Origin: Phragmites australis
Taxonomy: Eukaryota > Streptophyta > Magnoliopsida > Poales > Poaceae
Length of the DNA: 64,000 nucleotides
NCBI RefSeq assembly: GCF_958298935.1
Contig: NC_084923.1
Span: forward strand, 31,650,501-31,714,500
Direction of reading: 5' to 3'
Part shown: in pieces, positions 12,853 through 50,255 of the stretch
Layout: each line of letters opens with the position of its first letter
Position numbering within the stretch: position 1 is the stretch's first letter
The notes under the pieces: model-generated
Told to the model about the DNA's origin: nothing
What the model saw: the letters and a program-made list of their open reading frames with translations, nothing else
Databases searched by the model: none
Program-made: the position numbers and the translations under genes

Positions 12853-13358
12853 GTAGCCCCTAACTTTACTCAGGAGGAAATGTTTCTACAAATGCTCACT
12901 TGAGTACTGCCAAGTCTAAGCCTGGTTGAGTAAAGTGGATCAGGCTTGTAGTCAAAATAATCAAGTAGAAACATATCATGTTCTGGGTATCGAGTGGAAA
13001 CGCAATTGGGTTGAGCGCCCTACTGTTAACCGCACTCAAGACTCGAAAAAAGGACTAAAACACGACTAACCGACTCTGTGCAGAGTTAAAAAACCTTCAA
13101 AAATTGAAACGTTGGGTATAAGAGCATTTAATGAGCATAGACGGGTGTGCAGAGATTCGCACAATACCATCATACCACCTTTCACACTGATCAAGGCGTT
13201 ATAGAGATGAGGGTGGTTACCAAAAAGGCAATAATTTTTGGGCTATTTATCTATACAAACCTGGACTGTAGAAATTCTTCCTCGTTGCCCCCGACCTTCT
13301 GCACAAGCTTCCATATTTCTCCGCACAAACATGCGCCACCGTTGGAAGAATTGGACTC

Positions 13359-15538: not shown

Positions 15539-15539
15539 G

Positions 15540-16851: not shown

Positions 16852-16937
16852 GTACATCCAGGGCTATCTATTTTTACCACGTCTCCTTCCTTTTCTCCCT
16901 GCCCATTGCCGAGTAGAAACTCGTTGAACTTGAAATC

Positions 16938-17554
16938 TGTCGAATATCTAATTATGGGGTACATGCACATAAGAAATACATCATATACGAACAGGGTATG
17001 TACAACACGTATTAAGAAGTTTTAGATATCATAGAACCAAATCAATGGTACCTGATACACCCAGAATTACGGAAGTACATAGCAGGAATGTTTCAATTAG
17101 TTACCTAACTCGATGCGGTTAGTACTCAAAATAGATATATCTACTTGGATGTAAGGAAAGACATTCCCTATCGACCACAGCTGGATAGGAGTCAATACTC
17201 CCATCCCTATATAAGGCTGGGGGGAAGAAGAACAGGGGACACGAGAACAACACACAAGGAAAACATAGGAAGAGATAACTCGAGACAAGCATCAAGACCC
17301 TAGCAGAGAAGGTACTCGATGACCTTAGCTTTAGGTTAGATAAGATCTAATATACTCTCTACAATAGATTTATCCCCATTGCTTGTACTCAAGATCATCA
17401 ACATACGGCAACAACACCCCCACAGGGCGTAGGGTATTACTCCAATCGGAGGTCCGAACCTGTATACATCGATTGTCCCATCTCGTGATTAATCCCTGCA
17501 CTTGAAGGTACCCAGTCTATTTACAGACACATCGTCAGGAATTAATTTTTGACA
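16938..17554 (+). repeat. 5' LTR of E1
   Basis: It starts TGTCGAATATC and ends TTTTTGACA, aligning along its length with 38078-38697. A TATA-like CCTATATAAGG lies near 17207. GTTGGTGCGTCAGGTAGGG follows directly and is the presumed primer-binding region; I could not match it to a tRNA with certainty. Confidence 0.9.
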
Positions 17555-19414: not shown

Positions 19415-21597
19415 ATGACTATAGTTGCAGTCGACAGGAACAAATCGCGCAACCCTGTGGACAACAAAGGCCTCAATCGAGGTGACGGAAAGTGGTGTCC
19501 CATCCTTCAGAGCAACCAGCACGACTTTGACGAGTGCTATGTGTTCAAGAAAAAGCTTGGCAAAAAAATAAAGGTGAACACTGAGCGTGGTAATAAGCAG
19601 GATAAGTCGAATGTTGAGGGCAGTGAGCCCCAGTTCAATGAGGCAGACCATAGCTTGGCTCACATATTCAGAGGATCTACCATGTATGAGTCCAAAAGGC
19701 AGTACAAGGCAGTCGAGCGAGAAGTTAACTTGGCCCTAACTGCGCCCACTCGGTATCTCAGGTGGTCAAAACTGTCGATTACCTTTGGTCAAACCAATCA
19801 TCTGGTCGCAATACCAGATCCTGGTCGATACCCGTTGTGGTTCAGCTGACCATACTCAACATCAAAGTTTCCTGAACTCTGGTCAATGGTGGTAGTCACT
19901 CAACCTCATTTTCTCCAAAACCTTGGACAAGATGGGAATTCAAAGATCAGAGCTTCAAATAGGAGTCGAGCCTTTTCATGGCATAACTCCCAACTCATCG
20001 ACCATGCCTCTTGGTCGGATCGAGCTGCCGGTCACGTTTGGCACGCCCGACAATTTTCGCATAGAAAAGCTGACCTTTGATGTCACGGACTTCGAGAAGG
20101 CATACAATGTGATTTTAGGCCGCCCAATGTTGGGAAAGTTCATGGTGGTGGTTCACTATGCTTACCAACTGCTCAAGATCCTGAGTCCTAAGGGGGCCAT
20201 TATAGTTAAAGGGGATCAACGCGCAGTGGTCAAATGCGACAAGCAAAATCTGGATATGGTCAAACACTTCGGTCGAGTGGCTATCATCGCCAAGGACGTA
20301 AATTCTAAGCGTCAAAGGAACCAAGATATCATCAAGGCTAAAAACTCCAGGCTCGTAAGTCTTGCTAGCACTTCTGAGTCTGACGACGCCGAGGCAAGAT
20401 TAACGATGGCGTCAACGATAAGAAGACTGGTGGTTGCATCAAGGCAGTGCCCCTCGACCCATCTGAACCATCTAAGACGGTTAAGATCAGGACCAATCTT
20501 GACCCCAAATAGGAACTCGAGCTCTTCACCTTCCTCCAGGCAAACCAAGAAGTGTTCGCATGGCAACCGTCCGATATGCCCGGGGTCCCTAGGGAGGTGA
20601 CCGAGCATCGACTAACTGTTAAACTCGGCACCAAACCTATGGTGCAGAAGCAGCGAAGATTTGCGGAAGATAGGAAGCGGGCCATCCTGGAGGAGGTCGA
20701 TAAACTCCTAAAGGAGGGCTTCATTTGAGAAGTGTGTCATCCTACGTGGCTCGCGAACCACATCCTCGTCAAGAAGGCCAATGGCAAATGGAGAATGTGT
20801 GTTGACTTCACCGACCTCAAGAAAGATTGCCCCAAGGATCCTTTTCCTCTCCCGCGCATCGACCAGATCATCGACTCTACGGCAGGCTGTGAATTGCTAT
20901 GTTTTCTAGATGCCTATTCAGGGTATCACCAAATTAGCATGGGATTAGAGGATGCGGAGAAGATTTTACTACTCCCTTTAGTGCATTTTGTTATGTAAAG
21001 ATGCCTTTCAGTTTAAAAAATGTTGGTGCTACATATCAAAGGTGTATTCAAAATTGTCTACAACCCCAAATCGGGCGCAATGTAGAAGCATACTTTGATG
21101 ATGTTGTAGTCAAGTCGGAAACCAGAAACATATTGGTTAACGATCTCATCGAAACATTTGACAACCTCAGGAAGTATCGAATGATGCTCAACCCCAAAAA
21201 ATGTACATTCGGTGCGCTGTCCAGCAAGCTTCTCGGCTTCCTAGTGTCAAGTCGAGGGATTGAGGCAAACCTGCGCAAAATTGAGGCTCTTGACCAGATG
21301 CGGTCACCTCGAACACTGAAGGAGGTTCAGAAACTGACAGGTTGCATCGCTGCTCTTAGTCAGTTTATCTCTAGGATGGGCGAGTGAGGAATGCCTTTCT
21401 TCAGGTGGTTGAAGAAACAAGATCGATTCGAGTGGACAGAGGTAGCGAAACGTGCCTTCTAGGACTTAAAATGGTACTTATCTTCCCCATTGATTCTTAC
21501 ACCGCCTAACGAGAAAGAGGAGCTCTTTTTGTATATTGCAGCTACCCCACAAGTCATAAGCACGGTTCTGGTGGTCGAACGAGAATGCCCCAAAAAA
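19415..21597 (+). pseudogene. pol: E1 pol, first part: protease, reverse transcriptase, start of RNase H
   Basis: A CPI...H...C zinc-knuckle-like remnant lies near 19497. At 19885 the aspartic protease motif reads VNGGS, where the family has D, so the catalytic Asp is Asn; a frameshift follows. The C-terminal protease part is at 19923-20300. RT runs from about 20520 with KANGKWRMCVDFTDLKKDC (20770) and the catalytic AYFDDVVVKS (21089). There is a stop at 20726, a frameshift near 20955, and stops at 21385 and 21460. RNase H begins near 21490 and is cut off by E2 after 21597, resuming at 32522. Confidence 0.85.
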
Positions 21598-21602: not shown

Positions 21603-22507
21603 TGATGAGGACATCACTCTTTCGGATACACACATACCGAGTATTCCTCCAACAATAGGTCCATTGACACGAGCTCGTGCACGTCAACTAAATCATGAGG
21701 TGAACTCGTTCCTTAGTGTTCCTTTATATTTTGATAAGGATGGGATGCTACTAAATAATTGTGATGTATTGTTACTTAGGAACACGGGAGAAGAACAGCA
21801 AGGGTGCCCAAGCCAAGGTGGAGATCCAATCAAGTTCGAGTCCGTTTCGGAGTCCAGCACCAGACTGCACTAAAATGGTCGCCCAGCACGTATACGGACT
21901 CCGTTTTTGACGTTCTACACATGGTTGGAAAGCTAAGGAGGTAGGCTTTCTAACGGGATTGGTCTCATGTCCAAATTCTTTCTGAGTCAATAGGAATGGT
22001 CGAAACAAGTGGACGTCTAGAATCTGTCAGGGTGCTGCGCCACCATCTTTTGGGCCGTTGGGCCGTGTAACGTGTTGGAGTCCATTAGGGACGCATCCAG
22101 GGGTTCTTAGCCGACCCTAGTATTTTATATACAGTAGCCACCACCCCAATTAGGGTTGGATTTTTTTTAGATATTGATCTACACACAGATTGTGAGATTT
22201 TCGCTCTTGTTCTGGACCGAGCCGCCGCAAGTGTTTGTGGAACCCCAACTTTGAGTGCTTGAATTCTATTCGCAATATTTCAGATTGCATCTTCTACATT
22301 CTTGTTTGTGTGCTCGGTACACTTGCAGGGATTGAGCCTTCTTGGCGAGGTCAACCGCGCGACACGGTTGATAACCAACGGAGCTGTGGTGTAGTGATTG
22401 CAAGGGAGACGATCTGTTCGGGTCGAAGCCTTTGGATCATCAACGTCGAGTTCTCCACCTACCGACTTATCGCTACCTATCGGAAGATTAGGCCTACAAC
22501 CTCATCA
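21603..22507 (+). repeat. 5' LTR of E2
   Basis: TGATGAGG...CCTCATCA ends, 905 bp. It aligns with 31608-32516; I counted about 14 differences in the first 310 bases, so insertion is not very recent. A TATA-like TTTTATATAC lies near 22124. The first 270 bases also carry the frame homologous to the integrase C-terminus. Confidence 0.93.
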
Positions 22508-22509
22508 AC

Positions 22510-22519
22510 TGGTATCAGA
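22510..22519 (+). promoter_or_regulatory. Primer-binding site of E2 (initiator-Met tRNA)
   Basis: TGGTATCAGA two bases after the 5' LTR matches the first ten bases of the usual plant initiator-Met primer site. Confidence 0.85.
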
Positions 22520-23051
22520 TTTTCAGGTTGCCCGTTAGGTAATTTCGTTTTCCCCTTTAGATTAGTCTGTTTTTCATTACCTAGAGTCCAGAAAAAGCCC
22601 AAAAAAAAAACAATTCCATCAATTTCCGCTGCCCTAGAACCCTTTGTGCCTTTGGAATTTTTGTTTTCAGTTACGCGTTGTTGAGTTTGTGTCTGTGGTT
22701 GAGTCTTGTTGCTGGTTTAGAGTCGTGTTCTTGGTCTTTAGTCAACGCTCCGTGCTGTTTGATCACGCCGCTATCTCATCGCCACCATCCCCACCAACAA
22801 GTCGAGCCACCACATTACTCGATTTGCCACCGCGAGCCACCTTGTGTTACTTTCCACCACGCCAACCCTAGATAGGTCGCAAGCCGCCTTGTATCAATTG
22901 CCCTGTCACCGCTGTCCTCCTTGTTCATCTTGTGATCCTATTGCTTGCCATACCTTAACGAGAACAATTTCTGCAAGAGGTGCTTTGAAAAAAACCCTAA
23001 CTTGACAGGGGTTCAGTAAAACGGCCATAACTTTCTCATACGGACTCAGAA
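22520..23051 (+). other. E2 leader, part 1
   Basis: Untranslated leader between primer site and gag, interrupted by the solo LTR that follows. No gene. It ends in the CAGAA target duplication (23047-23051). Confidence 0.7.
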
Positions 23052-26000
23052 TGTTACACCCGGTTTTAACGGCCAAAACCAAGTGCGGCTTATGTGTGCC
23101 CAGGAAGTTTAACACACATAAGGACGTCATAGGTGAAGTAACAAAAGCAATAATTTTACTTATAATCGTCAAACTCTTACACAAAGTCTTCACCTAAACA
23201 ACTCAACTAACCAATCTATAACTGTTAAACGACGACAGCGGAATGAAAGCATCGGCGACCAAGCACTCCACAGGCACTGACTGGAAGACACACTCCTAGA
23301 AGACCAGGTCGTCATCTTGAAAGTCTTGATCGTCTTCCACTGAGCAGCATATGTTTTTGGTAGGAGAAAGCAAGGGTGAGCACATAGAGTACTCAGCAAG
23401 TGTGGAAAAATAATGATATGCAGGCTTATATCAAGGATAGGCTGACACAAGGTATTATTTGCGTAAATGCGGGTAATGAAAACACATTTGGACTCAAAAG
23501 CATTAGACAAATATTAAATGAATGTAACTAAACAATCCATCATCTAGCATACAAGGTTCCCCACCCTGCATACCACAACCGTCTAGTACTCCCTGTACTA
23601 AGACCAAGACCCCACCATCTAGTACTCCTTGTACCAGAACCAAAACCAAACCACCATCTAATCATGTGAGGATCCAAGTCTCTCATATCCGTGAGCACGG
23701 CTGTTATAACAGTTTTACACTCTGCAGAGGTTGTACAACTTTCCCACAAGTCGTGATTTCATCACCTGCAAGCAGATAACTAGAGTCTCCATGTTGCAGT
23801 GCTGGCCAAGCACTATGCACACGCCAGTGGTGTGTTACCAGGAGATCACTACGAAGCCTTTACAAAGAATCCTCCCAGTATGTGTCACCAACACTCCAGG
23901 TTTCACCGCTAGGTACTACCACCTAGAAGCCCCCTCTTGTGCCATGTGGTTTCTGAGAATTTCCTTATCTCATCCACGCCTCCCCTCTGGCCCACACAAC
24001 ACTGAAAGAACCCTAATTAATCGGCTAAGCCTTCCCATATTAGTCTCGTGTTTGTACGGAGCTTCTCGGGTTGTCGCTCCACGAACCGGTCCTTACTTAG
24101 GTTACTTGAGCAAATACTAAACCAACGTCATAACCATGACAACCATCAGAACTACCTTGCTCAAGGCCTAAGGTTCCATGTTCCTAGACCATTAACCAGT
24201 TAACCACTATTGTTGCATATGTTCATTAGTCAAGTATATGACACTTCCCAATATCCCAAAAGCATGGCTAAGCAATCTACCCATAAAAGACTCCTAACCA
24301 AAAACCATCTAGGTTCCAAGGGATGATAAGGAAAAATCTAGGGAAAACCATAACATAGGTGGCTACCCATCATATTGACTCTGCATGCAATTTTGTAAAA
24401 CAAAACATTTAAAAACATAGGTTCAAAATGATCAAGGACACTTGCCTTCTCCTTGCTGCTGCTCAGTGTATTCTTGCTCCTGGTCTTGATATTCTTCAAA
24501 CTGATCCGGGGCGTTGACGACTAATTGCACAATAACCGGCAAAGCACACAAACAAAACATACTAAGAATAGAGCACAACCAGAGAAACAACAAGACAAAA
24601 CCTATCTAGAAAGATAGAGCTCGGAGAAACGAATCTATCGGCACAAGAATCGCTGAAATCGGAGTTACGACGGAAAAGATATGCTAAAAACAAGATTAGG
24701 GTTTATTTTAATTAAGAAAAGGACTTAATTGTAATTATGGAAAAGTATAGGGACCTTTTTGTAAAAATAGAGGGACCTATTTGTAATTATGAAAAAGTTC
24801 AGGGACTAAATTGTAAAAAGATAGGGGCTTTTAGGTAATTATAGAAAAGTCTAGGGTTCTTTCTGCAAAATTACCAATTAAAGGAATTATTTGGAATTTT
24901 TGGAATTATCTTTGTACTGGAAAAGATGAATTGCTGACTGGATAGATGACTAGGCATATTGGCTAATGTGGCACACATGTGGCACTGATGTGGCAGGGTG
25001 ACGTAGCTAAGGTGCTGACTGTGTTTAAAGAGGCGACACGTGGCAACCTGCTACTGGCTACTGAAGAGGTATATGTGCGATCTAATCTCAGCCGTTCGGA
25101 CTAGATCGGACGGCTCAGGATGGATCGGGCGACCGGAGGGGAGGAACACGGTTGAGCCGAGGGATTCACGGTGGCGATCTCGCCGGAGATCGGCACAGAC
25201 CTCGTCGCCGGTGTCGATCCTCGACGGCGAGCGGCGTAACACGGTGTGGCGGCCATAGGGAGCTCGTTTTAGGGCTTACCGGGGTTGGAACGGCACGGGA
25301 ACTGGCCGGCGTCGACGAGGGCGTCGGCGAAGCTCGGGGTGTCGTCGAGGTGTGGTCTCCGGCGGCGGAAAGGCGACGACGAGCGGCGTGGGAGACTATA
25401 CGCAAGCACGCGGTCACAACGGCGCTCTCAGAAGCGGCGGAGAGGCGGCGGCAACGGTGGACGGCGAGCTCGACCGAGAGCAATGGCGGGCGGTGGCGCA
25501 GCTCGACGATTCGGGGAAAAAGGGCACGAGAGGCAACGACTTTTGGCGAGATGGGACGGAGGAGCGTCGGGTTCTATATATAGGCGACGGGATCGTGGAG
25601 TCTGTGGCACGCACGCCAAGAAAGAGGGCGGCAGCGCTGCGGTCTCGTGCTCGGTTGGGACTCCGTCCGGAGGTAGGAGATGGTCCTGACCCGCGGGACC
25701 CACATGGCAGTTACTCGGGCGAAGGCGGCACGGCAGAAGGCGTCTTCAGCGGCGGGCGCAGGCGCGAGCGGTTGGCTGGGCCAGCTCGGGCGTGGCCCAG
25801 GCGGGAAGGGAAAGTGGGAAGCGGGCCGGCGCGGGAAGATGGGCCAGAGAGAGAGAAGGGAAAGGGGGTTGGGCCGGGGAAAGCGGGCCGAGGGAGGAAG
25901 CAGGGTGGCGTGGCTGGGCCGAAAGGGTGAGAGGGAGAGAAGGGAGGTCTGAGAGGGAATTCTAATATTTTCTTTTCTTTTTATTTCTTTCTCTTTTCCA

Positions 26001-26241
26001 AAACTATTTTCAATTATTTTCTAAACATTTCTAAATCTATTCTCAAGCAAACAATTCAAATAAGTCAACCAAAAATCTAAATGCCTAACTCCAGCATGAA
26101 TGCATTCAAACAATTAATGCTCCTAAATCAAATTTGAATTTGAATTTAGAAATTAGGTTTTATCCTATGCTATTTGTTTAAACTCAAATTAAATCTAGGA
26201 AATTTTTAGGAAATTGCAAAATTTGAAAATCAGGTGTTACA
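23052..26241 (-). mobile_element. 3.19-kb solo LTR (Tekay/RIRE3-like family) in the E2 leader
   Basis: The segment has TG...CA ends with inverted TGTTACACC/GGTGTTACA termini and a perfect 5-bp target duplication CAGAA (23047-23051 and 26242-26246). It has no internal coding region or second LTR, so it is a solo LTR left by recombination. Two related copies lie at 42069 and ending at 53957. Length and TGTNACACC ends fit large chromovirus LTRs such as Tekay/RIRE3; the family is inferred. Minus orientation is inferred from the + strand TATAAAT box in the oppositely oriented copy. The Arg/Gly-rich frames at 25150-25950 are GC-rich LTR sequence, not genes. Confidence 0.75.
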
Positions 26242-26246
26242 CAGAA

Positions 26247-26952
26247 TCAGGCAAAAAAAATTTTCACGGACATCTACAGAAAAAGTTACATTTGTTGCTC
26301 CCCGGCCTTGCCGGGTTCCGCCGATTTTTTTTCCCAAATTCGGCTTGGAAGATTGAGTTTTCGAGCCGTGAAGTTTTCGCACGCTTTTCAGAGAACGTGC
26401 TTGATTTTCTATAGGCCACATCTTGCATCCGTTTGCGTTGAAAATTTCTGTGGTTGTTTCTTGTGTGCTCCTAGTTCAGAATAAAATATCAGAAAAATAC
26501 AAAAAAAAATTCGTGATTCCTACTAGTGCTAAAAGACAAAAAAAGAGGAGCACATAGAGAACACCCAGATAATTGTACTATTTGCTGTGTCTTTCTCTGA
26601 TCATCCTGTTTAGTTTTGTTTCAGCTGTTGTGCTAGGACTAGGGACATGTGATAGACTAGCAACTGTGATTCATATTTTGGATACTTATTTAGCTTTGCT
26701 CATCTGATTACAGTTATTGCTAATCCTTGCTACCATATTGTGCCTTTCCAAGCTCCACCTCCTTTGATCCGAACAGGTTCACTCTTACAATCATCCCACG
26801 CTTCCAGACTTGTCACCGATTGTTCCTCCTTGCTGCGTTGGTAAGAACATTTGTAAGAGCGTGGTAAGACGCTTGAGTGTGTGTGATTCCTCCTTCTACC
26901 ACCTAGTAGTTGATAGGGATAATATTGTGTTGTCCTTTTTTTTCTACTAACC
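26247..26952 (+). other. E2 leader, part 2
   Basis: Leader sequence resuming after the solo LTR and running to the gag ATG. Includes a small GC-rich hairpin-like CCCCGGCCTTGCCGGG near 26299. No gene. Confidence 0.6.
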
Positions 26953-28108
26953 ATGTCACGTGATGGCTCTTCGTCGGATTTTAAGGATTGCGTGTCCAAG
27001 GAAGAACTCAACAAAGCCTTGCAGGATCATGCTAGACTATTGACAGACATTAGAACAAGCATTGCTAACCTTGTCACGCGAGTCAACGACCTTGAGTTGC
27101 GACAGCCACCATAGGATGATGAACATTCACATGATGATGATAAGAATAATGGTGACGGAGATGGTGACCAAGAAGATGGTGAGGTTTTTGTTGGGCAAGA
27201 TGCGCGTGCTGAGCAACGTCCTCGTGCTGAACAATTACATCGTGACCAACAACAACGTCGTCAAGGTAACGGAGGTAATAATGTTAATCGCAACGGTCAC
27301 GATGATCCTTATTCTAAGATTAAGTTTTCAATGCCTCCTTTTGATGGTGCATATGATGCTGATGCTTATTTGAATTGGGAAATGACGGTTGATCAAAAGT
27401 ATAGCTCTCATATGGTTCCTGAAATGCATAGAGTTAGACTAGCCACTTGTGAGTTCACAAATTATGCTATTATTTGGTAGAATGGTTTAGTTTCTAGTGG
27501 CTTAGAACCTGAATCATGGCCTAGACTAAAGTGTGCCATGCGCAATAGATTTATTCCTCCTGATTATACACATGAATTGAAAAAAAATTACAGCGCTTAA
27601 ATCAAGGTTCTAAATCTGTGCATGATTACTATCAAGAGCTTCAAATTGCTATGCTTCATTGTAGTATACAAGAGGATGATGAGGATACCATGATTCGTTT
27701 TTACTCTGGGTTGAGACGTGAAATTCAGGACCTTGTTGATTATAAAGATTACAATACTACCAATAGGTTGTTCCATTTTGCTATCTTGGCAGAAAAAGAA
27801 CTGCAGGGTCGACAACAGGTGCAGAAATTGCGGAACAATTTTGGGAGTACATCTACTTCACGAGTACCACGGGACAAGCAACACCATTCCCTTCTACATC
27901 TACACGATCTGCTGCTCCCTCCTCGAACACTCCGGCGCGTTCAGCAGGAGCACCACCACCATCACGTGAGGTGAGAAAATCTACTGTTTCACAGGATCCA
28001 ATACCAAACTCTTCTTCAAGTGCAGCTACCACGGGTCGTACATCGGGCATTGTGTGCCGTCGCTGCCAAGGTATTGGCCACATCATGAAGGATTGCCCAA
28101 GCCAGTGA
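26953..28108 (+). pseudogene. gag: E2 gag, disrupted, with zinc knuckle
   Basis: Starts at ATG 26953. The frame has TAG stops at 27112 and 27478, then shifts near an A-rich run at 27580. The capsid part continues in a second phase (27600-27974; HDYYQELQIAMLHC) and the zinc knuckle CRRCQGIGHIMKDC (28055-28096, CCHC spacing 2-4-4) is in a third phase, followed by TGA at 28106. Gag assembles the particle and the knuckle binds RNA. At least three stops and two frame changes inactivate it. The order and the downstream protease confirm identity. Confidence 0.85.
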
Positions 28109-31100
28109 GCATACTCCGCAACAGCAGATGTTGGATATGTTAGTCATAGTGATGTCGAGGAAGAATATACATTTGAAGCTAATCTTGCAGCCGATCATGA
28201 CATGGATAGTGAGGGGGAGGAGATTAGTGGTACCGCTGCCACGGAGAGTTATGCAGCACGCACCTTCATTGTGAAGCGAGTTTTGAGTTCTCAAATGGAG
28301 CAAGCAGAGCAGCTACAATGCCATAATCTATTCCAGATATTCCTCATTGTCAAAGATGCACGTGTTCGTACCATAATTGATGGCGGGAGTTGCAACAACC
28401 TCTTGAGCTCCGATCTTATGAAGAATCTTTCCTTGCCAACACGTGCACATCCTCATCCATACTACAATCAGTGGTTCAATAACAGCGGCAAGGTTAAGGT
28501 AACATAATCTACGAGAGTACATTTTTCTATTGGTTCCTACCATGATTATGCTGATTTTGATGTAGTGCCTATGCAAGCAAGTTCACTTTTGTTAGGCCGT
28601 CCTTGGGAATTTGATACCGATGCTACACACCATGGTAGAAGTAATAAATACTCTCTCATGCACAAGGAAAAGAAAATCACTTTGCTTCCTTTGACACCTG
28701 CTGAAATTGTGCAATGTGATAAAGCGCTAGCTGAAAAAGAAAAGAAAGAACGTGTCTTGAAATCTGAAAATCAGCAAGTAGCTCAATCTGTTTTCCCACC
28801 TAAGAAAGAGAAGAACACACCTAGGTCCGAAGGCATTAAGTTAAAGGGTGGTGTTATGCTTGCTACTAAATCTGACCTTGCTGAAATTCAAGATAATGAT
28901 GCTTTGTGCTATGCTTTGGTATGCAAAGAGGTTTTATTTTCAATTGATGATATACCTAGCTCTTTGCCTGCTGCTGTCACTAACCTTTTGCAGGAGTATA
29001 AGGATGTCTTTCCAGCTGAGATACCCCCAGGGCTGCCACCATTGAGAGGGATAGAGCACCAAATAGATTTGATCCTGGGAGCGACTTTGCCAAACCGCGC
29101 TGCATATAGGACCAATCCAGAGGAAACTAAGGAAATTCAGCGACAAGTCCAAGACCTTTTGGACTGTGGGTACGTACGAGAGAGCCTTAGTCCTTGTGTT
29201 GTTCCTGTTCTTTTGGTTCCTAAGAAAGATAGTACATGGCGCATGTGTGTTGATTGTAGAGCCATTAATAATATCACAATAAGGTATCGTCACCCTATTC
29301 CTAGGCTAGACGACATGTTTGATGAGTTGAGTGGTTCTATTATTTTCACGAAGATTGACTTGCGTAGTGGTTACCACCAAATAAGAATGAAATTGGGAGA
29401 TGAATGGAAAACTGCTTTCAAAACTAAGTTCGGTCTATATGAGTGGTTAGTGATGCCTTTTGGTTTAACTAATGCACCTAGCACTTTCATGAGATTGATG
29501 AATGAGGTTTTACGTGCTTTCATAGGAAGATTTGTGGTGGTGTACTTTGATGATATTTTGATCTATAGCAAGTCACATGAAGAACACCTTGATCATCTAC
29601 GTGCTATTTTTACTGCTTTGAGAGAGACACGTTTGTTTGCTAACCTTGACAAGTGCACCTTTGGCACGAATAGAGTTGCTTTTCTTGGCTATGTTGTTAC
29701 TCCACAGGGAATTAAAGTGGATGAAGCTAAAATTGAAGCCATCAAGAGCTGGTCGACCCCTGGGACTATCACACAGGTGAGAAGCTTTCATGGCCTTGCA
29801 GGGTTCTATCGGCGTTTTGTGAGAGATTTCAGGACCATTGCTGCTCCACTCAATGAGTTGACAAAGAAGGGCGTTCCGTTCCAATGGGGGCCAGCACAAG
29901 AACAAGCTTTTAATATGCTGAAAGAGAAGCTTACGCATGCACTTCTACTCCAACTTCCGGACTTTGGTAAGACTTTTGAGTTAGAATGTGATGCTAGCGG
30001 CATTGGAATTGGAGGAGTGCTACTACAAGGAGGTAAACCCGTTGCTTATTTTAGTGAGAAATTGAATGGGCCATCTTTGAATTATTCGACTTATGATAAG
30101 GAGTTGTATGCTTTAGTGCGAGTTTTAGAAACATGGCAACATTATCTTTGGCCCAAGGAGTTTATTATTCATTCTGATCATGAAGCTTTGAAACATATTA
30201 AAAGCCAAGCCAAACTGAACAAATGTCATGCTAAATGGGTTGAATTTATAGAGTCATTTCCTTATATCATTAAACACAAGAAAGGTAAAGACAATGTCAT
30301 TGCAGATGCGTTATCTAGACGTTATACCATGCTGTCCCAACTCGATCATAAGATTTTTGGTTTAGAAACAATTAAAGGATTATATGCTACTGATTTGGAC
30401 TTTAAAGATGCTTTTGAACATTGTAAAGAAGGAAAAATTTGGAATAAATATGTGCTGAATGATGGATTGCTATACCGTGCTAATAGGCTATGCATCCCAG
30501 CTAGCACTATTCGCCTATTGTTCTTGCAGGAAGCGCATGGAGGTGGTTTGATGGGACATTTTGTAGTGAAGAAGACCGAGGATGTACTGGCTGCTCACTT
30601 CTTTTGGCCTAAGATGAGGCACGACGTCGAGCACTACGTGGCACGCTGCACTACTTGCAATAAAGCTAAGTCTCGCTTGAACCCACATGGACTTTATATG
30701 CCTCTTCCTGTTCCTAGTGTGCCTTGGGAGGATATTTTTATGTATTTTGTTTTAGGATTGCATAGAGGGGGAGGGATAGTATATTTGTCGTTGTGGATCG
30801 TTTTTCAAAAATGACACATTTTATACCTTGTCACAAGAGCGATGATGCTACACACATAGCTGATTTATTTTTCAGGGATATCATTCGCTTGTATGGAGTG
30901 CCTAACACCATTGTTTCGGATCGTGATGCTAAATGTTTGAGCCACTTTTGGAGGTCACTTTGGAATAAACTTGGGACAAAGCTGCTGTTTTCGACGACAT
31001 GTCACCCTCAAACCGACGAACAAACAGAGGTTATGAACTGCACATTATCCACCATGTTGCGGGCTGTTTTGAAGAAAAATTTGAGGATGTGGGAAGAGTG

Positions 31101-31878
31101 TCTACCCCATATTGAGTTCGCTTACAACAGATCAGTTCACTCCACCACCAAGGTAAGTCCGTTTCAGGTAGTGTATGGTTTTAATCCCTGTGCCCCTATT
31201 GATTTACTGTCTTTATCAACATCCGAGAAATTGAATTTTGATGCTAAGACACGTGCTGATTTGATTCTGAAAATGCATGAGTTGACTAAGGAAAATATTG
31301 AAAAGATGAATGAGAAGTATAGAACTTATGGTAGCCAAGTTCGGAAACATATTACTTTTGAAATTGGTGATCTTGTGTGGTTACATTTGCACAAAGATAG
31401 GTTTCTTGATTTGAGAAAATCTAAATTGCTGCCTCGAGCTAATGGTCCTTTTAAAATTGTGGAAAAGATCAATGATAATGCATATAAGCTTGAGTTGCCT
31501 GCAGATTATGGGGTTAGTCCCACATTTAACATTTCAAATTTGAAGCTTTACTTGGGAGAAGAAGATGATATTGCATCGAGGACGACTCCAATTCAAGAGG
31601 GGGAGGATGACGAGGACATCACTCTTTCGGATACACACACACCGAATATTCCTCCAACAATAGGTGCATTGACACGAACTCGTGCACGTCAACTAAATCA
31701 TGAGGTGAGCTCGTTCCTTAGTGTTCCTTTATATTTTGATAAGGATGGGATGCTACTAAATAATTGTGATGTATTGTTACTTAGGAACACGGGAGAAGAA
31801 CAGCAAGGGCGCCCAAGCCAAGGTGGAGATCCAATCAAGTTCCAGTCCATTTCGGAGTCCAGGACTAGACTGCACTAA
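28109..31878 (+). pseudogene. pol: E2 pol: protease, RT, RNase H, integrase; disrupted
   Basis: Protease has the IIDGGSCNNLLS active-site motif (28376), with TAA at 28505. From 28565 a 749-codon open stretch holds RT ([13 protein letters not shown]; catalytic [10 protein letters not shown] at 29537), RNase H ([18 protein letters not shown], about 29970) and the integrase H2C2 zinc region (HGGGLMGHF...CTTCNKAK, 30537-30670). At 30740 the first integrase catalytic Asp is Tyr (WEDIFMYF). A one-base frameshift lies near 30765. The frame 30793-31878 carries the other two acidic residues (VSDRDAKC; NCTLSTM region) and a GPFKIVEKIN tail, then enters the 3' LTR and stops at 31876. The protein cannot be functional. 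Confidence 0.9.
31595..31607 (+). promoter_or_regulatory. Polypurine tract of E2
   Basis: AAGAGGGGGAGGA directly precedes the 3' LTR and lies inside the integrase reading frame. Confidence 0.85.
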
Positions 31879-32516
31879 AATGGTCGTCCAGGATGTATAC
31901 GGACTCCGTTTTTGACGTTCTACACATGGTTGGAAAGCTAAGGAGATAAGCTTTCCAACGGGACTAGTCCCATATCCAAATTCTTTCTGAGTCAACAGGA
32001 ATCGTCGAAACAAGTGGACATTCAGAATCTGTCAGGGTGCTGCGCCACCATCTTTTGGGCCGTTGGGCCGTGTAACGTGTTGGAGTCCATTAGGGACGCA
32101 TTCAGGGGTCCTTGGCCGACCCTAGTCTTTTATATACAGTAGCCACCGCCCCAATTAGGGTTGGGTTTTGCTTAGATATTGATCTACACACATATTGTGA
32201 GATTTTCGCTCTTGTTCCGGACCGACTAGGCCGCCGCAAGTGTTTGTGGAACCCCAACTTCGAGTGCTTGAATTCTATTCGCAATATTTCAGATTGCATC
32301 TTCTACGTTCTTGCTTGTATTCTCGGTACGCTTGTAGGGATTGAGCCTTCTTGGCGAGGTCAACCGCGCGACACGGTTGATAACCAACGGAGCTATGGTA
32401 TAGTGATTGCAAGGGAGACGATCTGTTCGGGTCGAAGCCTTTGGATCATCAACATCGAGTTCTCCACCTACCGACTTATCGCTACCTATCGGAAGATCAG
32501 GCCTACAACCTCATCA
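31608..32516 (+). repeat. 3' LTR of E2
   Basis: 909 bp, TGACGAGG...CCTCATCA (one base changed from the 5' copy at the start). The right target duplication AGGCC is at 32517-32521. Confidence 0.93.
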
Positions 32517-32521: not shown

Positions 32522-34600
32522 AAGGTCCAAAAACATGTTTATTACGTGAGCGAGGTTCTACACGATGCTAAGCTACGATACCTGCAAGTACAGAAGCTGA
32601 TATATGCAGTCTTAATGTCTTCCCAGAAATTACGGCACTACTTCCAAGCGCACAGGATCACGGTCTTGAGGACGTATCCGTTGAAGGATGTAATACACAA
32701 CTGGGAAGCTACTGGATGAATCACGCAATGGGAGGTAGAACTAAATGAGTTCGATGTAAGCTACGCACCACGCACAATGCATGAAATCCAGAGTGTTAGC
32801 AGATTTCATCCCCGAATGGACAAGCGTTCAGGAAAAAAAGGCCAAACATGGTCGAAGATCATTGGATGCTCTTTTTCGATTGATTGCTCACGTTCCAGGG
32901 CTGGGAGGCTGGCATTATGATCAAATCTCCAACGGGCGATGAACTCAGGTACGTTGTTCAGTTAGACTTTAAAGCCTCTAATAATGTTGCAGAATATGAA
33001 GGACTGGTAAACTGGCTCCGCATAGCTGCATCGCTTGGGGTAAAACGACTTCTTGTGAAAGGGGAGTCACAGCTAGTCATAAACTAAGTTCAAAAGGAGT
33101 ACAAGTGCTTGGACGACAACATGGCAGCTTACTTACTCTAGGTGCGAAAGCTCGAGCAAAAGTTTAAAGGACTAGAAGTGACGCATATCAGAAGGAGTGA
33201 TAACTTTGGTGCGAATGAACTTTCTAGACTCACTTCTTCTGAGCACTGGTACCCATAGGGGTCTTCGTTAAGAAACTCCTAAACCATCTGTCCCAACAGT
33301 TCGGCGAACGGATGCTGCGCAACCCGACCAGCAGTCTGATCAGATCAGCGAGGCACAACCCGCAGACACGGATGTTGCACTACTCAAACGCAACTTGACT
33401 TGGATGACTCCATACCAAGCCTACCTCAAGGGTCGATACATCCCTGATGATGATGCGTTTGCAGATAAAATTGCTCATAAATCCAAGCTCTACATTTTGG
33501 TAGACGGCAAGCTCTACCGAAAGGGGAGTAACGGAATCTTGATGAAGTGCATCACTCAGGAAGAGGGCAATAAAATATTGCTCGATATCCATAGAGGCAT
33601 ATGTGGTAATCATGCGTCTTCTTGCACCTTGGTCAGAAAAATTTTCCGCCAGGGACTATTGGCCGACTGCCCTCCAGGATGCTTACGAACTGGTCAAAAA
33701 GTGCGAAAGTTGCCAATTTTTTGGAAGGCAGACCACTCGACCAGACCAAGCTCTGCAAACAATCCCTCTTTCTTGGCCTTTCTCCGTCTGGGGCTTGGAT
33801 ATCCTGGGACCGTTCCCAATGGCCCAAGATGGTTACAAGTTCCTATTTGTGGCTATCGACATGTTCACCAAGTGAATAGAGGCCGAACCCATAGGAAGAA
33901 TAATCGCAGAAGCTGCCAAGAAATTCCTGAGGAGCATAATTACTCAATTTGGCATTCCGCATTGGATAATTATGGATAACGGTAGCCAGTTTAGAAGAGG
34001 AACCTTTATTGTGTTTTGTGAAGAATTTGCATTAAGACTTGTTTCGCATCAGTAGCTCACCTGCAGAGTAATGGTCAAGTTGAGCGTGCTATTGGTATAG
34101 TCCTGCAGGGTATCAAAACTTGGGTCTTCCATAGGCTAAAGGCTTACTCGAAACGTTGGGTAAAAGAGCTTCCCTCGGTACTATGGGCCATTTGTACATC
34201 GACTAATATGGCCACCGGTGAAACTCCTTTCTTCTTGGTTTATGGAACAGAAGTGGTGCTCCCGACTGAATTGCAGTTTGGATCACCTCGAGTGGAAAAT
34301 TACTCTAAAGAAGGGAAGGAGCACTAACGAGCGGATGACATAAATCTACTCGAGGAGTACCGAGATCGAGCATCTATTCGAGCGGCCAAGTATCAACAGG
34401 CATTGTGTAGATATCAAGGCCAGAAAATTCAACCCAGGCAACTCGCTGCTGGGGACCTCGTCCCACGGAAGGTGCAGAAACAGGCCCAACGCCATAAGTT
34501 ATCGCTTAAATGGGAAGGACCTTACATACTAGTCGAGGTCACTCGACCTGGGTCAGTAAGGCTATCTACTCCAAACGGCGAGATACTCGAGCACTTGTAG
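32522..34600 (+). pseudogene. pol: E1 pol, second part: RNase H, archaeal-type RNase H, integrase
   Basis: RNase H resumes at 32522 ([20 protein letters not shown]). After WEATG and a stop at 32717 comes a second RNase H at about 32890-33260 with NNVAEYEGLVNWLRIAASLG and RRSDNFGANELSRL, the plant archaeal-type RNase H typical of Tat. Integrase has its zinc region at 33590-33715 (HRGICGNH...CESCQFF, split by a frameshift near 33650). Its core then starts with WGLDILGPFP (33793), has a TGA at 33872, and continues with IIMDNGSQF (33962) and SNGQVERA (34073). A stop at 34325 precedes a C-terminal part ending near 34600. Several breaks make it inactive. Confidence 0.87.
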
Positions 34601-35421: not shown

Positions 35422-36451
35422 GCAGGGGGATGAGTCTTACTGTATAAACATAGTTGTTAGGATCCGAAATGATGGCATCGCCTCGGGCGCGTAGCGTGTT
35501 CGGTGAAGTCAAGATGTCTTTATGGCTTATCTCGTCTCTGCAAAGAGGGATGAGAGGTCATTATGGCAGGACAAATCAAGAGTGCGGTGAAAACGAGCAC
35601 AAAAGGGAGTGGGTTTTTAATGACCACCTACCTGGTAGTTTGAGCTTAATCCATATTCACATCGTAGTTAAAACAATAGTGCTCGGGAGCTTGCACTCTT
35701 GAGTATTCAGTCAAGGATGGTGTGTTGATGCATATACTCTACTCTATGTCTTGATTGCTACAACAAACAGAGAGTTGGGGACTACATTGCAAACCTTTGA
35801 TGCTGGAGCTTTACTCTTTGTTTGACTACATTATCGACCAACGGTATAGGTATGTCCTTTTTTATTCTCCGATCGAGTAATTTCTTCCTCGACCATAGAG
35901 TCAGGGGCTACATCATAATACCATGTATTTTTGCAAAATTTTATCTGGCTCTGCGTTGATCACATTTAATAGAACCAACGGAGACATGTGTTGGGTCGAT
36001 GACGATTATACCTCAGGAGGCATAATGGCACAGAGATTGTCAGACATCTCATGCCTAATGGCCAAAAAGGGTTATGAAGTCCTAGTCTGCCTCGCGTGTG
36101 CTCTCTATCAAGTTCATGTTTATGTGCTGATTGAATGCACAAGTTGATAAAACTTTGCAGAAAATCTGATATTCTTAGCTCTGTATTAGTCATTTTTCCT
36201 TACTATTACAATCTTATCGAGTACTCGAGGGCCGCGCATCTAATGACTTGTCTAGTTATGATTTGAGGTATCACAAATATACCATTGATAGATCTCAAGA
36301 ATAACGATAGAATGCTATGATCGGTTTTGCATCTATTCATGCTAAACTCTATTTCATAGACAAGGAAATAGTAGTGGCAGCATATTAGACATGAAAAATA
36401 TCAGCAGCACCTCCAGTACAATTATCAAACAAGAAGAAGCCTATTGCATAT
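35422..36451. other. E1 tail between the two antisense genes
   Basis: No gene supported. GGGGCTAC-type motifs recur at 35770-35785 and 35898-35911, as in the E3 tail. From 36220 to 36408 the reverse complement aligns with E3 15607-15800. This should be the 3' UTR side of the F-box gene. Confidence 0.6.
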
Positions 36452-37504
36452 TTAAGGGAAAAGCTTAGGAGATATCCACCTACAAGAACGCCACATAAAA
36501 TTCCCTTCAAGGGATTTGACCGTCCTGGAAACAGTGTCGGGGTGCGAAATCTTGAGCACCGAGTATTCATCTTAGTCGTAAGTTGGGCTTGTCCGATGGA
36601 AGCCTAGAGTTCGACCAGGGTTGGTAATTCCTGGTACGGGAGGGACGACCTTAGAAGTCAAGCCCAACAGAACTGTTTTGTCCTTCATCCAAGGGATAGC
36701 TTTCCAGTTGAGAGTCTCCCAAATGTCATCATTAAAAGCATGAATAGAAACTAGTGTTTGAGCATTATGTTCAGCAGGATCATCAATTTGGTTGCCCCAA
36801 GATTTCAAGAAAAACACGCGAGTCTCGTCCAAGATAAGTCGAGTGCCCTCCAGACCAGGTTGCCAGAGCTCAAACTCTGGCATCGACTTTTCCAATGCTG
36901 CAATGACTCCGGATGGATCCCTTGAAGCAACCCCATCTAGGAAATCAGCAATGCACCACCAGAATTTGCTACTAGAGACATGGAACCAGCGCAGGGGACC
37001 ATCGACAAGAAACACATGCACACCCCTTGTCATCTGAAGATGGAAACATGGCATCCTTGGGCAAACAATGACGAATAGTTTCCCATCCTTTCGCACCACA
37101 CATCCCTCTAGACTTACCCAAAATGCAACATAAGAAAGTGGTGGAAGGTTGGAGAACCATCCTATCACTGGGTTGATCACTCTGCCCTTGATCTGTCTCC
37201 CTTGATCGATGATGATCAAGAGCCTGCTTGAGGCCCTGACTACCCCCCAGCTGTCACCGACCAGGCCTCAGAAATGAAGGTCGATAACTACTTCACTCCC
37301 CAGACGATGCGCTCTGATCAAGCTATTATTGTGCACAAATGGCCCTTTCAATATCCATGGCGCAAACTCTACCACCCTGTGCACTTCATGCCAAGAAGTG
37401 CATACACAACGGAAGAAGGCAAAATCCTCTGGATGAACCAGCTTGCTGGAGACGATCTCGAGCACTCCCAAGGGAAGAGCTTCCCAATCAAAAGTCTCCG
37501 CCAT
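36452..37504 (-). pseudogene. F-box protein gene carried in the E1 antisense slot
   Basis: ATG at 37504 begins MAETFDWEALPLGVLEIVSS, followed by KLVHPEDFAFFRCVCTSWHEV, an N-terminal F-box (residues about 5-45). In plants this domain binds SKP1 in SCF ubiquitin ligases. One phase is kept for 351 codons to TAA at 36452, with TGA at 37268 and TAA at 36572 as the only breaks. The C-terminal part (e.g. GRVINPVIGWFSNLPPL, CFHLQMTRGVHVF, FLDGVASRDPSG) resembles the DUF295-like C-termini of grass F-box proteins, though I am less sure of that. There is no intron. It replaces the Transposase_28 gene found at this position in E3 and shares flanks with it. It looks like a captured host gene copy, now decaying. 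Confidence 0.75.
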
Positions 37505-38077
37505 GAGAATTAAAGGGAAAAGAAGAAGTTCTCCGAGTAGAACACGAACAATGGTGGACGAGATCAAAGGGCAGGATTGCAATGGATGTCACAAGAGTAG
37601 GACGATAGAGCTTTCTACTCGGATAAATAGGCCCTGCCTCAAGGTATGACATGGAAGATGTTTCCGCTTCAGAAAAGGAAGATTTATCGTCTCTTCGACA
37701 ACAACACCCGTTTTTACCATGCTTTGACTGGCGTGAGAAGTGGTATGATGATGATGTGCGAATCTCTGCACAACCTTCTACCTGCGTTAAATGCGCCTAC
37801 ACACATCATTTCAAATTTTGAAAGGTTTTTTTACTCTACTCAGAGTCGGGTGTCGATCAATTGAGTTCTTTAATCTTTTCCTTCAAGTCTCGAGTGTAGT
37901 TAGCCGCAGGGCACTCGACCCAACTGAGCTTCCACTTGATACTCAAGGAAGGACCCGCCTATGCTCAATTCTTTCGGCCATGAGACTGAACCACTTTACT
38001 CGACCAAGTTTAAGCTTGGCGGTACTCGAGTGGGTGCTTATGGAAAACTCTCCTCCTAAGTAGAGTTTGGGTGCTAC
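37505..38077 (-). promoter_or_regulatory. 5' region of the E1 antisense slot and LTR-proximal tail
   Basis: 37589-37771 read on the minus strand aligns with E3 13147-13260 (GTGCAGAGATTCGCACA, then CTATTTATC). This is the presumed promoter and 5' UTR of the antisense slot. GAGTTTGGGTGCTAC (38063-38077) directly before the LTR is the polypurine-tract position of E1, though impure. Confidence 0.5.
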
Positions 38078-38697
38078 CGTCGAATATCTAATTATGGGGT
38101 ACATGCGCATAAGAAATATATCATATACGAACAGGGTATGTACAACACGTATTAAGAAGTTTTAGATATCACGAAACCGAATCAGCGGTATCTGATACAC
38201 CCAGAATTATGGAAGTACATAGCAGGAAGGTTTCGATTAGTTACCTAACTCGATGCAGTTAGTACTCAAAACAGATCTATCTACTTGGATGTCAAGGAAA
38301 GACAACTACGTATCGACCACGGCTGGATAGGAGTCGATACTCCCACCCCTATATAAGGCTGGAGGGGAAGAAGAACAAGGGACACGAGAACAACACACAA
38401 GGAAAACCTAGGAAGAGAGAACTCGAGGCAAGCATCAAGACTCTAGCAGAGAAGGTACTCAGTGACCTTAGCTTTAGGTTAGATCAGATCCGATATACTC
38501 TCTGTAATAGTTTTAGCCCCATTTCTTGTACTCGAGATCATCAATATACGGCAATAACACCCCCGCAGGACGTTGGGTATTACTCCAATCAGAGGCCCAA
38601 ACCTGTATACATCGATTGTCCTGTCTCGTGATTAATCCCTGTACTCGAAGGTACCCAGTCTATTTATAGACACATTGTCAGGAATTAATCTTCGACA
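38078..38697 (+). repeat. 3' LTR of E1
   Basis: 620 bp. Starts CGTCGAATATC (TG decayed to CG) and ends CTTCGACA. Aligns with 16938-17554 throughout. The right flanking 5-mer is AAACC. Confidence 0.9.
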
Positions 38698-38702
38698 AAA
38701 CC

Positions 38703-39281
38703 ATGGCTTCTACTCTATCGTCATCTCCCGAGCCATGTTCAGAAATAGCAGGAGTAGGACCTATGGCCCGAAGGCCTCTTGCCATGGTTCCACCTGGTGT
38801 CATCATCGTTTCCTCTGACGAGGAGGAATCAATCGAAAGGCCTAAGAGGAGAAGGAATAGAATATCCATTGGAGGTCATCGACTCTTCACCCACCACCTC
38901 AGGTGTTTCCTCGACGTCGACACCGCAGAATGAGTGGCACAAGAGTCAGCGACGTGAGTTGCGCAGGAGGTAAATGAAGATGGTGGTGATCTTGATGAGA
39001 TCATTGACCTAGTTGCCAACGAGATCTTCAACGATGAAGCCCTCGAACCTCCAGTGGTGAAGAAAGTGCGGTCGTCTTCTCCGTTGACAACTGGCAGATC
39101 ATCCTCTCACCCTACGGAGGGCCACTCGACATCGTTAGCGCATGTTAGCAGCTCCAGCAAGGTCTTCACCTCAGCCTCCTTCCCTGGCCCTTACGCTGGT
39201 CAATGGATGATCCCTGGGACAATCAGCTACCGCTCTGTGGAGGAACGAAAGATATTCCTTGACTCATTTAAGGGCAAGTAG
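38703..39281 (+). pseudogene. E3 antisense gene next to integrase (VSSDEE...FLDSFKGK protein)
   Basis: ATG at 38703 opens MASTLSSSPEPCSE; one phase runs 193 codons to TAG at 39279, broken only by TGA at 38931 and 38955. It has VIIVSSDEEESIE, a basic RPKRRRNR patch, GGDLDEIIDLVANEIF, a Ser-rich stretch and SFPGPYAGQWMIPGTISYRS...FLDSFKGK. This is the counterpart of the E1 gene at 34746-35327. It is antisense to E3 pol. Its TATA box (16843) and most of its 5' UTR lie on the other side of E1, about 21.8 kb away. No function is known. The conservation of ends and motifs between two separate copies argues that it was once a real gene. Confidence 0.7.
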
Positions 39282-39439
39282 GGGTCCACATACTTCTGAA
39301 CCCTTGGATACTTCTGAACCCTTGGAGGTGGTGGGTCTTTACTATTTGTAAGAGCTAGGCGAATCCTTTATGTTAACAATATGTAATAGGATAGTCAGTC
39401 TGATCAGAATGTAATCGACTTACCTTATATATGAATAGA

Positions 39440-41960
39440 ACTTCCAGAGTTGGTCGATGTGCCACGAGTTTTTGAGTATCTCTTCATCTAGAGTAGATAG
39501 TCGTACCGATCCAGGTTGAGTTACTTTGACTACTATATAGGGTCCTTCCCACTTAAGTGATAACTTATGGTGCTGAGTCTGTTTCTACACCTTTCATAAA
39601 ACAAGGTCCCCAGCAGCGAGTGTCCTGGGATGAACTTTCTGACTGTGATATCTACGCAACGCTTTTTGATACTTAGCTGCTCGAATGGATGCTTGATCAC
39701 GATACTCCTCGAGTAAATTGATATCATCCGCTCGCGATTGCTCTTGCCCTTCTTTGACTAAGTTTCCACTTGAGGTTCCATACTTCAACTCGGTCGGGGG
39801 CACTACGTCCGCACCGTAGACTAAGAAGAAAGGAGTTTCACCAGTGGCCTTCTTAGTCGAAGTGCGAATGACCTATAGTACCGAGGGAAGCTCTTTCACC
39901 CATCATTTCAAGTAGGCCTTTAGCCTATCAAAAACCTGAGTTTTGATACCCTGCAAGATTATACCATTAGCGCGCTCAACCTGACCGTTACTTTGAGGGT
40001 GAGCTACTGAAGCGAAACAAGTTTTGATGCCAAATTCTTCACAGAACGTGATAAAGGTCCCACTTTTGAACTGGCTACTGTTGTCTGTAATTATCTGGTG
40101 TGGAATTTTGAATTGAGTAATTATACTCCTCATGAACTTCTTAGCTGTTATGTGGTTATCTTCCTCACTAGTTCGGCCTCGATCCACTTAGCAAACGTGT
40201 CAATAGCAACGAATATGAACTTAGAAACATCATGGGCCCTTGGGAATGGTCCCAGGATATCCAAGCCTCAGATGGAGAAAGGCCAAGAAAGAGGAATTAT
40301 TTGCAGAGCTTAGGCTGGTCCAATGGTTTGCCTTCCAAAAAATTGGCATCTTTCACACTTTTTGACCAGCACAGAAGTATCGTGGAGAGTAGTTGACTAA
40401 TAGAATCCTTGGCGGAAAGCTTTTCCAGCCAAGGTGCGGTAAGACGTATCATTACCATACATGCCTCCATAGATATCGAGCAATATATTCTTGCCCCATT
40501 CCTGAGTGATGCACTTCATCAAGATTCTGTTACTCTTCTTTCGGTAGAGCTTGCCATCTACCAAAGCATATAGGTTGGACTTAAGAGCAATTTTCTCTGT
40601 AGATGCATCATCATCAGGAACATCTCGACCTTCGAGATAGGCTTAGAATAGGGTCATCCAAATCGGTTTGCATTTGAATAGTGTAGCTACCATGTCTGCA
40701 AGTTCTGCCTCGCTGACCTGATCAGACTACTGGTCAAGTTGGGTAGCATTTGTTCATCAAATTGACATGACAGATGGTTTGAGGAGTTACAAAGACTCCC
40801 ATGGGCATTAGTGCTCGAGAAGAAGCGAGTCTAGCAAGTTCATCCACACCAGAGTTATCACTCCTTCTGATATGCGTTATTTTTAGCCCTTTGAACTTTT
40901 TTTGAGCTTTTGCACCTCGTTCAGATAAGCCTCCATGTTGTTGTCCGAGCACTGGTACTCCTTTTGCACCTGGTTTACGACTATTTATGAATCCCCTTTC
41001 ATGAGAAGTCGCCTGATTCCAAGTGATGAAGCTATATGTAGCCCGTTTACCAGTCCTTCGTATTCTACATTATTGTTAGAAGCTTTAAAATTTAATTTAA
41101 CAACATACCTGAGTTCATCGCCTGTTGGAGATTTAAGTACAATGCCAGCCCCGAGCCCTGAAGCGTGAGCGATCCATCAAAGAAGAGTGTCCAGTGGTCC
41201 TCGACCCCACATGGCTTTGTTTTTTCGACGCTTGTCCATTCGGTGATGAATTCTGCTAGTACTCCCAACTTAATGCTTGTTTGTGGTGCATAGTATACGT
41301 CGAACTCATTGAGCTTGACCGCCCACTGTTTGATTCGTCCAGTAGCCTCTATATTGTGTATGACATACTTCAATGGATACGTTGTCACAATAGTGACCTT
41401 GTGTGCCTAGAAATAGTGTTGTAGCTTCTGGGAAGACATTAAGACTGCATATAGCAACTTTTGTACTTGCAGGTACCGTAGCTTAGCGTCGTGTAGGACT
41501 TTGCTCACGTAGTAAACAGGTTTCTGGACATTGACCTTTTTTCTTGGAACATTTCTCCTCGACCACCAAGATCGTGCTTACCACATGTGGTTTTGCTGCA
41601 ATGTACAAAAATAGCTCCTCTATTTCGTTAGGTGGTGTTACAATTAACGGAGATGATAAATACATTTTTAAATCCTGGAAGGCATTCTCCGCTTCTTTTG
41701 TCCACTCGAACTGGTCGTGTTTCTTCAACAGCTTGAAGAAAGGCATCCCTCTTTCATCCATCCTAGAGATGAATCAACTAAGGGTTACAATGCATCCTGT
41801 CAATTTTTGAACTTCTTTTAGTGTTCGAGGTAACTGCATTTTGTTGAGCGCCTCAATTTTACATGGCTTGGCTTTGATGCCTTGACTTGACACCAGGAAG
41901 CCGAGAACCTTGCCGGATGGAACACCAAACTTGCACTTCTCGGAATTAAGATTCATACGT
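39440..41960 (-). pseudogene. pol: E3 pol remnant: end of RT, RNase H, archaeal RNase H, integrase
   Basis: Read on the minus strand from 41960: the RT C-terminus (MNLNSEKCKFG, then LGFLVSSQGIKAKPCKIEAL) and thumb (GRTLKEVQKLTGC-like text). RNase H at 41483-41761 (FEWTKEAENAFQDLKMYL) and 41092-41388 (VLAEFITEW). The archaeal-type RNase H lies at about 40734-41170 (RRSDNSGVDELARLASS). The integrase zinc region is at 40310-40550 and its core at 39903-40280 (DILGPFP, IITDNSSQFKS, HPQSNGQVERANG), with the C-terminal part at 39500-39800 (AGDLVL). Multiple stops and frameshifts. Same domain order as E1 in reverse. Confidence 0.85.
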
Positions 41961-45663: not shown

Positions 45664-45840
45664 CGTTAAACATAGCAAGTCTATCTCTATACATGGAAGG
45701 GTATCCCCTAATCATGAAGCTGCGTCTCCTACCTTACTGTGTATCCATTGATCACGGTTGCAACACTTTCCTTTGTACATCTTCTATATATATGAAAGCC
45801 TATGACCCATAGAGGTCATCCAGCGCCATACAATCTAACA
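45664..45840 (+). repeat. 5' LTR of the copia element
   Basis: 177 bp, CGTTAAACATAGC...CAATCTAACA (the initial TG has become CG). CTATATATATGAAAG near 45783 is a likely TATA region. Confidence 0.92.
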
Positions 45841-45853
45841 TGGTAACAGAGCC
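45841..45853 (+). promoter_or_regulatory. Primer-binding site of the copia element
   Basis: TGGTAACAGAGCC immediately after the 5' LTR differs by one base from the usual initiator-Met tRNA primer site. Confidence 0.85.
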
Positions 45854-45872
45854 AAGGTTTTTTCGTTGAAGA

Positions 45873-50249: not shown

Positions 50250-50255
50250 GGGGGG
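50248..50255 (+). promoter_or_regulatory. Polypurine tract of the copia element
   Basis: GAGGGGGG directly before the 3' LTR, overlapping the stop codon of gag-pol. Confidence 0.85.

Follow-up and report, generated by a model that had tools for sequence, protein, structure and literature searches.

Two related gypsy elements, stacked in one stretch of Phragmites australis DNA (64,000 nt of NC_084923.1, 31,650,501-31,714,500; the window), appear to have kept the same antisense cassette around different coding cores. The exchange looks real from the sequences compared, while what was swapped in is uncertain. We propose, with a probability of about 0.6, that the old Tat/Retand-type element E1 retained the outer parts of an antisense gene and carries a core other than that of its relative E3. 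The E3 core would be the Transposase_28 gene usual for the lineage, and the E1 core would encode a 310-codon protein with a weakly F-box-like N-terminus. The exchange would most likely have preceded the insertion of E1, roughly 3.6 million years ago at a substitution rate of 1.3e-8, and after insertion the frame would have decayed along with the element. The first-pass annotation of this DNA had suggested both a kept cassette with an exchanged core and the capture of a host F-box gene. The first idea is supported because the sequence is homologous on both sides, the cores are unrelated, and a TATA-like motif is placed alike before the two start codons. The second fared poorly, with a domain match below the cut-off, no protein relative found and a broken frame. 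The F-box identity of the core and template switching as its source are both unproven.

Three stacked elements and their lineage

Self-comparison of the window and reading of the boundaries resolve three stacked elements, E1, E2 and E3 (Table 1). E1 (16938-38697) was inserted within E3, which lies on the minus strand and picks up again at 38698. The first-pass annotation had placed E1 on the minus strand, but the element itself runs on the plus strand, its extra gene alone being on the minus strand. The LTRs of E1 are 91.2% identical (K2P 0.0946), and its 5-nt flanks agree at four of five bases. E2, which has Pfam matches to reverse transcriptase, RNase H and an integrase zinc-binding domain, has LTRs that are 94.8% identical (K2P 0.0543). 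The pol region is broken in both E1 and E3, and in E1 it is also split by E2. Past the pol remnant of E3 lies a partial relative of E2 (42069-43571, plus strand, 77-79% nucleotide identity).

What is the lineage of E1 and E3? The additional RNase H (aRH) is a marker of the Tat clade. It scores above the RVT_3 cut-off (21.6 bits) in E1, at 24.7 bits, and in E3, at 31.4 bits (E 2e-7). In E3 the aRH (40988-41176) comes before the integrase core (39906-40187; rve E 1.4e-6, below cut-off) on the coding strand; the integrase-region piece of E1 gave no Pfam match. Both elements have an antisense open reading frame between pol and the 3' LTR, on the minus strand in E1 (37504-36572) and on the plus strand in E3, and both frames are broken. 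We class E1 and E3 as related gypsy elements, probably of Tat/Retand type. An antisense Transposase_28 gene is described as a hallmark of the Retand lineage (PMC11963269). E1 gave no Pfam match to Transposase_28 and holds no remnant of it, and is not classed as a Transposase_28-bearing element.

Table 1. Coordinates of the features discussed (positions in the window)
Feature	Position	Strand	Remarks
E1 5' LTR	16938..17554	+	AAATC (16933-16937) directly before
E1 3' LTR	38078..38697	+	AAACC (38698-38702) directly after
E1 reverse transcriptase fragment	20729..20995	+	PF00078 E 5.3e-6, 26.7 bits, below cut-off of 29.6
E1 additional RNase H (aRH) fragment	32884..33084	+	PF13456 RVT_3 E 2.4e-5, 24.7 bits
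E2, separate gypsy element nested in E1 pol	21603..32516	+	AGGCC on each side
E3 3' LTR	12274..12853	-	aligns with E1 LTR; left edge approximate
E3 continuation past the E1 insertion (tail, integrase core, aRH)	38698..41917	-	
E3 antisense gene with Transposase_28	13359..15535	+	stop-broken; ends approximate
Region common to E1 and E3 upstream of the antisense gene, between 3' LTR and slot	37679..38077	-	
TATA-like motif GGGCCTATTTATC in E1	37622..37634	-	3' end 118 nt ahead of ATG
E1 antisense frame	36572..37504	-	310 codons, weak N-terminal F-box-like match
Region common to E1 and E3 downstream of the antisense gene	35843..36404	-	
14-nt direct repeat around the E1 frame, two copies	36450..36463 and 37509..37522		13 of 14 nt identical

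Shared flanks, unrelated cores

The sequences on either side of the slot are homologous in E1 and E3. On the start-codon side, E1 38671-37679 (minus strand) aligns with E3 12274-13239 at 67.5% identity over 1005 columns (E 5e-122), and on the downstream side E1 36404-35843 (minus strand) aligns with E3 15613-16200 at 68.7% over 607 columns (E 2.7e-71). A third alignment joins E1 35828-35520 to E3 16411-16721 (67.2%, E 1e-34). Aligning the two tails, a step that the first-pass annotation had suggested, places the end of the firm start-codon-side alignment at E1 37679 and E3 13239. The flank similarity that it had reported thus holds at 67-69% identity, and the two short pieces on which it relied score well above 200 dinucleotide shuffles per piece, with z 23.7 for E1 37589-37771 and z 31.0 for E1 36220-36408; the longer piece E1 37589-38077 (489 nt) reaches z 110.

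The cores are as unrelated as had been claimed. By the same measure the E1 core compared with the E3 core gives z 0.8, and in nucleotide and translated searches of the window with E up to 1 the E3 core (13240-15612) has no match in the sequence belonging to E1, and the E1 core (36405-37678) has a best E of 0.25 outside itself. The slot of E3 does hold the Transposase_28 gene noted earlier, although stops break it and the open pieces further along are in different frames: PF04195 matches within 13626-13943 at E 5.5e-17 with X at the stops, and at E 1.1e-16 when that piece is searched alone. Against an exchange stand two stretches of E1 that have no E3 counterpart, namely 37505-37678, which is by itself unalignable with E3 (z 0.5) with the exception of one TATA-like motif, and 36405-36571, which falls outside the E3 alignment.

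Two further frames were seen in this comparison. A third, weaker Transposase_28-like frame at 57258-57752 (plus strand; E 0.0026, 18.4 bits, below the cut-off of 26.2) was also hit when the E3 core was used in a translated search (E 1.4e-4); the window self-comparison found no E1/E3-type flanks near it. E1 also has a second antisense open frame of 154 codons just beyond pol (34832-35293, minus strand), which is 63% identical to E3 and has no Pfam match above cut-off.

A TATA-like motif bordering the slot

The exception within the unalignable stretch of E1 lies at a corresponding place in E3. There GGGCTATTTATC (13240-13251) directly abuts the end of the firm alignment, 108 nt ahead of the ATG of the Transposase_28 frame; the E1 version, read from 37634 to 37622, has one extra base. 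The word GGGC(C)TATTTATC occurs only twice in the 64 kb, with both strands searched. Shuffled sequences matched the E3 word as well in 1, 0, 132 and 4 per 1000 cases for words of 10, 12, 15 and 20 nt, a result that varies with word length and is only suggestive, since the motif was noticed before it was tested. In E3 a further ATG, at 13331 and out of frame, intervenes between the motif and the start codon. The shared motif suggests a retained, putative antisense promoter. Such a promoter in the slot is reasonable because a promoter located upstream of gene23 in Grande is reported to drive its transcription (PMC7264820).

A frame probably open at the insertion of E1

The E1 frame runs from an ATG at 37504 to a TAA at 36572-36574 and contains an in-frame TGA at codon 79 (37268-37270). 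The intact gene of 351 codons that had been read here does not exist as such, as that length passes both of these stops. We consider the frame dead now and probably open at the time of insertion, because the damage fits what the divergence of the E1 LTRs would lead one to expect. Had the frame been open at that time, it would by now be expected to carry 1.55 new stops and 2.26 frameshifts, the latter figure being based on just three LTR indels; one and none are seen, with a probability of 0.53 for at most one stop and of 0.10 for no frameshift. If the rate given above applies, E1 inserted 3.64 My ago.

It is very unlikely that the frame is noncoding, a chance open stretch within the decayed tail of the element. 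Codon-position G+C is only mildly different (0.547, 0.415 and 0.495), and the longest stop-free piece, 231 codons, is matched in length by 1 of 1000 shuffles, both of which would suit such a stretch. A stretch as long as its 338 codons interrupted by no more than one stop, however, appears in none of 1000 shuffles, and the start codon stands 118 nt behind the TATA-like motif shared with E3.

How F-box-like is the E1 core?

The F-box gene reported by the first-pass annotation is reduced by our searches to a resemblance. With the whole E1 frame, Pfam gives F-box-like at E 0.054 (13.7 bits) and F-box at E 0.056 (13.8 bits); with residues 1-60 the values are E 0.0051 (17.0 bits) and E 0.0096 (16.3 bits). 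All of these fall under the curated gathering cut-offs, which are 20.5 bits for F-box and 24.3 bits for F-box-like, and the rest of the frame beyond the N-terminus has no Pfam match. Neither of two protein searches found a relative: one, of 5.8 billion proteins, gave none among 1379 candidates at E 0.001, and the other, with the N-terminus, gave none among 34 candidates at E 10. We therefore describe the predicted protein as F-box-like and do not class it as an F-box protein. Its downstream part, by eye, resembles what we take to be the DUF295/KIB class of F-box proteins, a resemblance that no Pfam match backs.

Structure and other collections were also consulted. AlphaFold run on the single E1 sequence gave a mean pLDDT of 38.2, a value too low to support a fold search, and the one match in PDB sequences, searched up to E 10, was a weak one to Vigilin (E 0.66). 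Three queries, namely a 231-residue stretch of the frame, the integrase region of E1 and the Transposase_28 segment, found no relative in scans of viral contigs. A 17-nt word of the flank present in eight viral contigs was set aside, as this is by estimate about the number expected by chance in such a collection.

Could the E1 frame instead be an ordinary eORF, fast-evolving or independently acquired, whose F-box likeness is due to chance or is very remote? We regard this as possible, though on balance unlikely; it concerns the origin of the core and is compatible with an exchange, so that its weight overlaps with that of the preferred reading. Besides the sub-cut-off scores, it draws on the fact that no relative was found in a database that does cover grasses: an M50 peptidase with PDZ domains in the window (4456-5712, minus strand, intact, 418 codons) has there, as the best named relative among the matches listed, a protein of Urochloa humidicola at 90% identity. 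That search requires shared exact words, of which at most 100 are used, and distant relatives may escape it. Shuffling points both ways, since one of four shuffled E1 proteins also received a weak Pfam match (DUF5025, E 0.3), while none of the four gave F-box or F-box-like. Moreover, these two were the sole families reported for the real protein at E up to 10, in a search whose filters discard most matches above about E 0.1, and they lie in the usual N-terminal place. In favour of such an eORF, the gypsy eORF proteins of one survey form 314 groups, for which independent acquisition has been suggested, and just 21.4% of the proteins resemble a known domain (Neumann et al. 2019; PMC6317226).

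A direct repeat and the possibility of a separate insertion

A 14-nt direct repeat close outside the E1 frame is a possible insertion scar, or it may be chance; shuffles of the two gaps produced a repeat as good in 4 of 400 cases. Were it a target duplication, the frame would be a separate insertion, of a retrocopy or of other mobile DNA, into an E1 already without Transposase_28. We think this doubtful. The repeat is one among seven short direct-repeat families there, no poly(A) precedes its downstream copy when read along the gene strand, and the segment is not bounded by long terminal inverted repeats. Just four bases separate the upstream copy from the ATG, which would leave a retrocopy with nearly no 5' UTR. 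A simple insertion should also have left Transposase_28 sequence on both sides, and none was found. As E1 holds no such remnants, a separate insertion requires prior loss of Transposase_28, and we rejected a later insertion as the sole explanation. We likewise rejected the lack of introns as evidence of a processed mRNA, because intronless F-box genes are numerous in grasses.

Direction and mechanism of the proposed exchange

Under the preferred reading, in which E1 kept the outer parts of the antisense gene around another core, we infer that Transposase_28 was lost in E1. This is the simpler direction because antisense Transposase_28 is carried by 97% of recently active Retand clusters (Vicient 2025; PMC11963269). 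Its absence need not mean exchange, since the survey of Neumann et al. 2019 (PMC6317226) recorded it for just 23% of Retand elements. With one copy only, the exchange could be private to the E1 insertion. A gene acquired by template switching onto a host mRNA would normally be expected in the same sense as the element, in line with PMC7264820; an antisense capture would need an antisense template or an event at the DNA level. Antisense transcription from the kept promoter and a function of the protein are presumed.

How does E1 compare with known systems? Antisense Transposase_28 genes and varied eORFs are already known in the lineage. The Retand antisense genes (PMC11963269) lie in gypsy elements, antisense to gag-pol and between pol and the 3' LTR, a description that E3 fits directly; E1 differs in its lack of Transposase_28 and in its unrelated, F-box-like core, and the word F-box is absent from the main text of that paper. 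Similarly, the antisense ORFs of maize Grande (gene23, with its own upstream promoter), rice RIRE2 and bean PvRetro13 are accessory genes at the same place; they occur in most family copies, and the passages on them in PMC7264820 describe no core exchange between sister elements. A gypsy lineage that acquired a host-type domain is likewise known from orchids, where the elements carry an AlkB-type RNA demethylase (PMC9289625). Those are represented by 38 and 23 consensus sequences in two species and are active in vitro, whereas E1 is one broken copy with a sub-threshold domain; the section of the same paper in which 121 angiosperm genomes are screened does not name F-box as one of the domains. 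LTR elements that captured genes in rice, sorghum and maize (PMC3726574; Bs1 via PMC7264820) also have host-like coding sequence between their LTRs. Captured genes are usually in the same sense as gag-pol (PMC7264820), but the E1 frame is antisense and takes the place of an element gene. F-box is not mentioned in the main text of Jiang and Ramachandran 2013 (PMC3726574), and among the matches listed in the literature, at the level of titles and the starts of abstracts, we found no description of an antisense gypsy slot occupied by an F-box gene.

The shared outer parts around different cores suggest that these antisense genes may be replaceable as units behind a kept promoter. If copies of the family confirm the exchange, the slot would be a natural record of proteins that help these elements, whose Retand-type antisense genes are described as open in origin and use (PMC11963269, PMC7264820).

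A far more speculative extension, to which we would give scarcely any weight, is that a Retand family swapped Transposase_28 for an F-box-type ubiquitin-ligase adaptor under its own antisense promoter, marking host factors, possibly those of silencing, for destruction, so that the slot would serve as an exchangeable anti-host cassette. The model for such an adaptor is P0 of poleroviruses, an F-box silencing suppressor.

Finally, the window holds other features outside the E1-E3 stack. A Copia element (45665-50429, plus strand) has long gag/pol frames and short LTRs that are 94% identical over 174 columns. An inverted repeat at 830-1326 has 198-nt arms, 81% complementary and 101 nt apart, with long AT runs, and a tandem duplication at 60902-64000 has a step of about 1.5-1.6 kb and copies that are 88-94% identical.
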